From Gammaproteobacteria bacterium (GTDB lineage Bacteria; Pseudomonadota; Gammaproteobacteria; Steroidobacterales; GCA-2729495), in the NCBI GenBank assembly GCA_003695765.1, contig RFHQ01000161.1, positions 1 to 35,044 of the forward strand: a stretch of 35,044 nt of DNA, in the 5' to 3' direction. A model generated the notes under the pieces. That model was given only the letters and a program-made list of their open reading frames with translations. It was not told the DNA's origin and did not search any database. Every line of letters begins with the position of its first letter. Position 1 is the first letter of the stretch. A program made the position numbers and the translations under genes. Shown piece after piece: positions 2,868 to 3,050 of this stretch.

Positions 2868-2896
2868 AAAAAAATGGCCCCGCGTCCGCGGGGCCA
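2868..2896 (-). terminator. Rho-independent terminator on the minus strand
   Basis: A perfect 9-bp GC-rich stem, TGGCCCCGC with GCGGGGCCA (2896-2888 and 2883-2875), has a 4-base loop and is followed on the minus strand by seven consecutive T (2874-2868). The plus strand lacks a T-run after the hairpin, so orientation is clear. It is the best terminator in the window, yet it lies upstream of the amidohydrolase gene rather than after any gene. Confidence 0.88.
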
Positions 2897-2989
2897 AGTG
2901 TTGCCCGACAGCTTCGGGCCGTGGTCTCGCTTAAGGGGGAAGGGGTGACCACGAACGCATTCTGCCGCCGGCCGGCTTAAGCGAAGCTT
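2868..2989 (-). ncRNA. Candidate structured small RNA ending in a rho-independent terminator
   Basis: No minus-strand gene precedes the terminator at 2868-2896, yet the 90 bases before it are highly structured. In transcript order there is a U-C-G-C-U-U-A-A-G segment (2984-2976); a 7-bp stem CGUGGUC/GACCACG (2953-2947 with 2926-2920) closing a 20-base loop containing CCCCUUCCCCC; a 6-bp stem GCCCGA/UCGGGC (2919-2903); and the terminator. The first segment is perfectly complementary over 9 bases to CUUAAGCGA (2935-2927) inside the C-rich loop, giving either an H-type pseudoknot or two mutually exclusive folds. A weak promoter, TTCACG-16 bases-TAATGT (TAATGT at 3001-2996), would start the RNA near 2989, about 120 nt long. 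C-rich loops are used by several bacterial small RNAs to bind Shine-Dalgarno sequences. I do not recognise a named family; a leader or attenuator of the downstream operon is the alternative. Confidence 0.6.
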
Positions 2990-3007
2990 GGCGCGACATT
3001 AAGTTTT

Positions 3008-3036
3008 GTTCAGGCTTCGTGAACCAGTTCCTGAAC
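3008..3036. promoter_or_regulatory. Interrupted inverted repeat, possible operator
   Basis: GTTCAGG (3008-3014) and CCTGAAC (3030-3036) form a perfect 7-base inverted repeat with a 15-base spacer. A shorter GAAC-CA-GTTC palindrome sits inside it, so four GTTC/GAAC quarters alternate. It lies between the TATACT box of the protease gene and the possible start of the minus-strand RNA, where a bound regulator could affect both. The cognate regulator is unknown. Confidence 0.4.
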
Positions 3037-3044
3037 GGCGCATC

Positions 3045-3050
3045 TATACT
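3045..3050 (+). promoter_or_regulatory. Candidate -10 box (TATACT) for the subtilase gene
   Basis: TATACT matches five of six consensus positions in an otherwise GC-rich stretch and lies 81 bases before the protease ATG at 3132. No good -35 box is found at 16-18 bases upstream; the inverted repeat at 3008-3036 occupies that position, so an activator-dependent promoter is possible. Confidence 0.4.

Follow-up and report, generated by a model that had tools for sequence, protein, structure and literature searches.

The minus strand of the 35,044-nt window analysed here (the whole stretch, positions 1 to 35,044 of contig RFHQ01000161.1) carries a candidate small RNA (sRNA) gene of 86 to 122 nt, which would run from about position 2953 (or about 2989) to 2868, divergent from a subtilase gene. 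Considered as a whole, the set of observations is likely to be explained by a free-standing sRNA gene whose C-rich loop would pair with target mRNAs and whose potential pseudoknot is incidental. The preliminary description of this DNA had proposed an undescribed sRNA with a C-rich loop, and this part of it is supported by the conservation of the hairpin, of one half of the C-rich loop and of the terminator in a second species, as well as by the lack of any Rfam family matching at threshold.

The 3' boundary of the element is an intrinsic terminator (2896-2868), made of a stem at 2896-2875 with 9 bp, 8 of them G-C, followed by a run of seven T at 2874-2868, where the transcript would end. It is the strongest of the 14 terminator-like sites found across the window, and no gene precedes it on the minus strand, as had been claimed: its neighbour on that side is the divergent subtilase (PF00082) on the plus strand, while the next gene downstream on the minus strand, coding for an amidohydrolase (PF04909), starts about 140 nt from the element. 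Upstream of the terminator, a 5' hairpin (2953-2920), which forms the conserved core of the RNA, consists of a 7-bp stem (2953-2947/2926-2920) closing a 20-nt loop, ACCCCUUCCCCCUUAAGCGA, and is followed by a second hairpin (2919-2903) that is predicted from the sequence and its folding, with a 6-bp stem (2919-2914/2908-2903, GCCCGA/UCGGGC). These two stems, and the 9-base complementarity between the loop and a segment further upstream that the preliminary description had pointed out, are all exact at their minus-strand coordinates. Compared to dinucleotide shuffles, the 86-nt core from 2953 to 2868 is unusually well folded (z of -4.0, reached by 1 of 500 shuffles), while the fold of a longer stretch including the leader (2995-2868) is ordinary (z of -1.1, 28 of 200 shuffles).

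A DNA search in 60 related genomes gave a single convincing match outside the window genome (E 7e-9), located in the congeneric isolate MO_074.B1 (JASJBD010000013.1, hereafter G004), where the homologue adjoins the same subtilase gene. A covariance model built from the window sequence alone finds this copy from end to end (44.9 bits, E 2.8e-10). As a neutral reference, the 4-fold sites of both flanking genes show 50-52% identity (about 51%) between the window and G004. Against this background, the segment CGUGGUCACCCCUUCCC (2953-2937), which comprises one arm of the stem and half of the C-rich loop, is identical at 17 of 17 positions, including the loop half ACCCCUUCCC (2937-2946). The aligned region on the 3' side of the hairpin is identical at only 5 of 20 positions, yet the pairing is retained (GACCAC becoming GGCCAC), and 6 of the 7 stem pairs are kept, one U-A being changed to U-G. 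The terminator is found at the equivalent place with its inner 7-bp stem (GCCCCGC/GCGGGGC) unchanged, and the G004 core is better folded than its shuffles as well (z of -3.9). Stem conservation holds for the 7-bp hairpin and for the terminator and fails for the second hairpin, at the place of which G004 has a 4-bp stem only. Since only two sequences are at hand, formal covariation has no power, and zero pairs are changed on both sides. Besides, the small open reading frames across the element do not keep their frame in G004 when the sequences are read by eye; this includes a frame starting from an ATG at 3000, which was rejected as a candidate on this ground.

Given that the amidohydrolase gene begins on this strand about 140 nt past the element, the latter could also be a cis-acting leader, its terminator then being an attenuator or riboswitch-like device in the 5' untranslated region of that gene. 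The comparison of gene order makes this unlikely. The window is collinear with contig 19 of G004 apart from a stretch of about 8 kb that, in the latter, sets the amidohydrolase off from the terminator, so that the next gene after the element encodes a flavin amine oxidase (PF01593), whereas the element itself stays with the subtilase side. This break in gene order just past the terminator argues against an amidohydrolase leader and leaves the sRNA unit intact. Moreover, the amidohydrolase is present in many related genomes that lack the element, and no Rfam riboswitch was matched at threshold. The additional segment of G004 (L033:3560-11750), which is lacking in the window, contains c-di-GMP-type genes in addition to the flavin amine oxidase. 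With the leader set aside, the best reading of the element from its sequence is that of a candidate free-standing small RNA.

Where its transcript would start depends on two putative promoters. The nearer one has a candidate -10 element at 2964-2959 (CAGAAT, CACAAT in G004), which relies on its pattern score and on its location in a block conserved in G004, GCGGCANAATG (2968-2958); it is devoid of a good -35 element and would place the start at the base of the hairpin, around 2953. The alternative, TTCACG-16-TAATGT (3023-2996), would lead to a start around 2989 and reaches a score of 5.4 in both genomes, a value equalled by 22% of shuffles and by 3.4% of random window segments. This second site lies in the block GGTTCACGAAGCCTnAAnAAAnCTTAATGT (3027-2996, minus strand), which is nearly identical in G004 and may govern the subtilase, the sRNA, or the two together; the G004 copy of this block contains two CTTAAT motifs set 10 nt apart from start to start, a pattern like that of response regulator sites. 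The site at 2996-3023 may accordingly be a promoter in its own right; it may instead bind an activator of the nearer promoter, or belong to the region that controls the subtilase. The start around 2953 fits better than that around 2989 because of the folding signal and of the variable leader of constant length that separates the two conserved blocks, the arrangement that an activator site paired with its promoter would be expected to show; both weak promoters may nevertheless be used.

The same upstream block lends itself to an explanation without any RNA gene, in which the conserved blocks would be DNA sites that control the subtilase promoter, and all that the terminator would do is stop transcription heading for the amidohydrolase. 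Few blocks are as well conserved as that at 3027-2996, which could indeed serve the subtilase promoter, for which a candidate -10 element, TATACT, is present at 3045-3050 (TATAGT in G004). However, the C-rich hairpin is situated about 100 bp from this -10 element, in its stem the pairing, and not just the sequence, has been preserved, and the core beats shuffled folds in both genomes. We therefore regard this explanation as rather improbable, and retain that of an independent sRNA gene.

The preliminary description further proposed that the RNA forms a pseudoknot or two mutually exclusive helices, in which the upstream arm UCGCUUAAG (2984-2976) pairs with the loop arm CUUAAGCGA (2935-2927), its exact complement, and that the palindrome CTTAAG might allow dimerisation. 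Under such a scheme, the RNA would toggle between the C-rich hairpin and the pseudoknot, or a CTTAAG kissing dimer, thereby exposing or hiding the C-rich loop. In the window genome, the exact 9-bp match between leader and loop is reached by only 6 of 5000 shuffled leaders, and loop lengths of 22, 11 and 0 nt would, by inspection, permit such a fold. Nevertheless, when 103-nt segments are shuffled or drawn at random, 2-4% of them contain an inverted match 9 nt or longer, which makes the 9-nt match weak evidence when taken alone. The best pairing between leader and loop in G004 spans 6 bp, a length that 1520 of 5000 shuffled leaders attain, and lies about 5 nt out of register, so that the arms of this one relative do not remain complementary in register through their sequence change. 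Both arms are located within sequence at neutral identity, the surroundings of the upstream arm being identical at 11 of 20 positions and the sequence of the loop arm not being conserved, and the palindrome is not kept in G004 either. An apparent compensatory change of the two arms in G004 (CCAAUUGGGG / CCCCAAAUUGG) was considered and discarded, since shuffling indicates that it is expected by chance in sequence so rich in C and G runs. Finally, the 5' arm may precede the transcript start and would be left untranscribed if the nearer promoter is used. Arms at neutral identity together with a chance-level match in G004 indicate that the pseudoknot is not a conserved feature; that of the window genome is most likely incidental, although it could exist in the window species only. 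A switch of this kind is accordingly very unlikely, and it is just as hard to credit a lineage-specific sRNA with a C-rich seed gated by a leader-loop pseudoknot here, the gate having been rewired or lost in the relative.

In terms of function, it is the conserved loop half that draws attention as a potential seed for target pairing. In Xanthomonas, the C-rich loops of the sRNA sX13 repress mRNAs carrying G-rich motifs near their translation starts (PMC3771888), and Burkholderia RNAs of the ncS27 type show complementarity to ribosome-binding sites in their CU-rich stretches (PMC5688073). By analogy with these RNAs, and provided that the RNA is real, a comparable mode in which the C-rich loop pairs with G-rich ribosome-binding regions appears reasonably probable. 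The complement of the loop segment ACCCCUUCCC is GGGAAGGGGU, and the segment would thus pair with G-rich, GGGAAGGGGU-like sequences at or near the ribosome-binding sites of mRNAs, perhaps with the help of Hfq, which is encoded in both genomes, thereby lowering the translation of the targets. In the window genome, 30 occurrences of GAAGGGG have an ATG 3-11 nt further on, versus 10 for the reversed control; the corresponding counts in G004 are 16 and 16. Plausible gene starts among these sites are those of an AcrB-family transporter, a TonB-dependent receptor and a gamma-glutamyltranspeptidase, and the comparison of loop complements before ATG in both genomes disclosed no shared target.

The element is present in one copy in the window genome and its distribution beyond G004 was followed at several scales. 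It was not found elsewhere among the 40 genomes covered for the family, the genus included, a set in which many species are absent and drafts are incomplete. In the same line, no copy was seen in the subtilase upstream regions of seven other family genomes, a plasmid search gave no match, and a covariance search in 396 genomes of the order yielded no further homologue, all the other matches that were inspected being terminators, coding sequence, or a separate element of another genus. When the 14-mer of the loop followed by a T-run was searched in 84,980 species genomes, 14 matches were obtained, of which only that of G004 has the stem. Within the limits set by missing species and incomplete drafts, the distribution is narrow and lineage-specific.

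The separate element just mentioned belongs to another genus of the family and combines a C-rich loop with a strong terminator just 3' of a gene end (L088:600-768 and L085:600-774; genomes G014, G036 and G061), with weaker instances of the same type in G007, G025 and G034. Other than between G014 and G036, a near-identical pair, identity among its copies is 69-79%. The copy of G061 carries CCCCUUCCCCCCUAAGCG, which is close to the window loop; this likeness is probably convergent. Being located 3' of a gene and in a different place, the element was not taken as homologous to that of the window, and is perhaps a 3'-UTR-derived sRNA. In G014 (contig C1) and G036 (contig C65), a 25-nt sequence (the GGTGGTCGCGGCTCGCG region, query bases 217-241) recurs many times just past the 3' end of this C-rich element, in part with a 126-bp period.

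As regards known RNA families, the Rfam check suggested in the preliminary description returned no family at threshold for either copy. The best or near-best family below threshold for both copies is anti-hemB (RF02837), with 17.4 bits (E 0.2) for the window and 20.2 bits (E 0.023) for G004, against a gathering score of 49.5; suhB / mmgR (RF00519) follows the same trend, with 18.1 and 17.4 bits, respectively, against a gathering score of 41. The anti-hemB RNA (Burkholderia RNA 7, also ncS04, PMC5688073) resembles the candidate in its layout, which associates a 5' hairpin with a C-rich loop, a second hairpin and a terminator over about 81 nt; it differs by the sub-threshold score, by its occurrence in another class and by its neighbours, so that the shared layout is a resemblance and not membership. 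The Xanthomonas sX13 is likewise a short sRNA, whose apical loops carry CCCC motifs, and comes from a G+C-rich gammaproteobacterium; however, it has three C-rich stem-loops and is Hfq-independent (PMC3771888), whereas the candidate has one C-rich loop, and the Rfam scans gave no match to the sX13 family. Finally, the double-hairpin ncS27 RNAs (Toxic small RNA, RF02278, PMC5688073) are short hairpin sRNAs whose unpaired CU-rich stretches are complementary to ribosome-binding sites, but they occur in several copies per Burkholderia genome, compared to one copy here, and RF02278 gave no match up to an E value of 10 with either copy.

The features common to C-rich-loop regulators, namely a conserved unpaired C-rich loop, a stable hairpin and a short unit ended by a terminator, are found in the two genomes. 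Because the hairpin and the terminator are kept in the relative while the pseudoknot is not, the element is probably an undescribed but ordinary sRNA of this known functional kind. General understanding of such regulators would stay unchanged: next to sX13, anti-hemB and ncS27, there would be one more C-rich-loop RNA of like layout without family relation at threshold. If this reading is true, an uncultured gammaproteobacterial lineage would possess a hitherto undescribed sRNA gene in single copy, the short conserved seed of which lends itself to direct testing.
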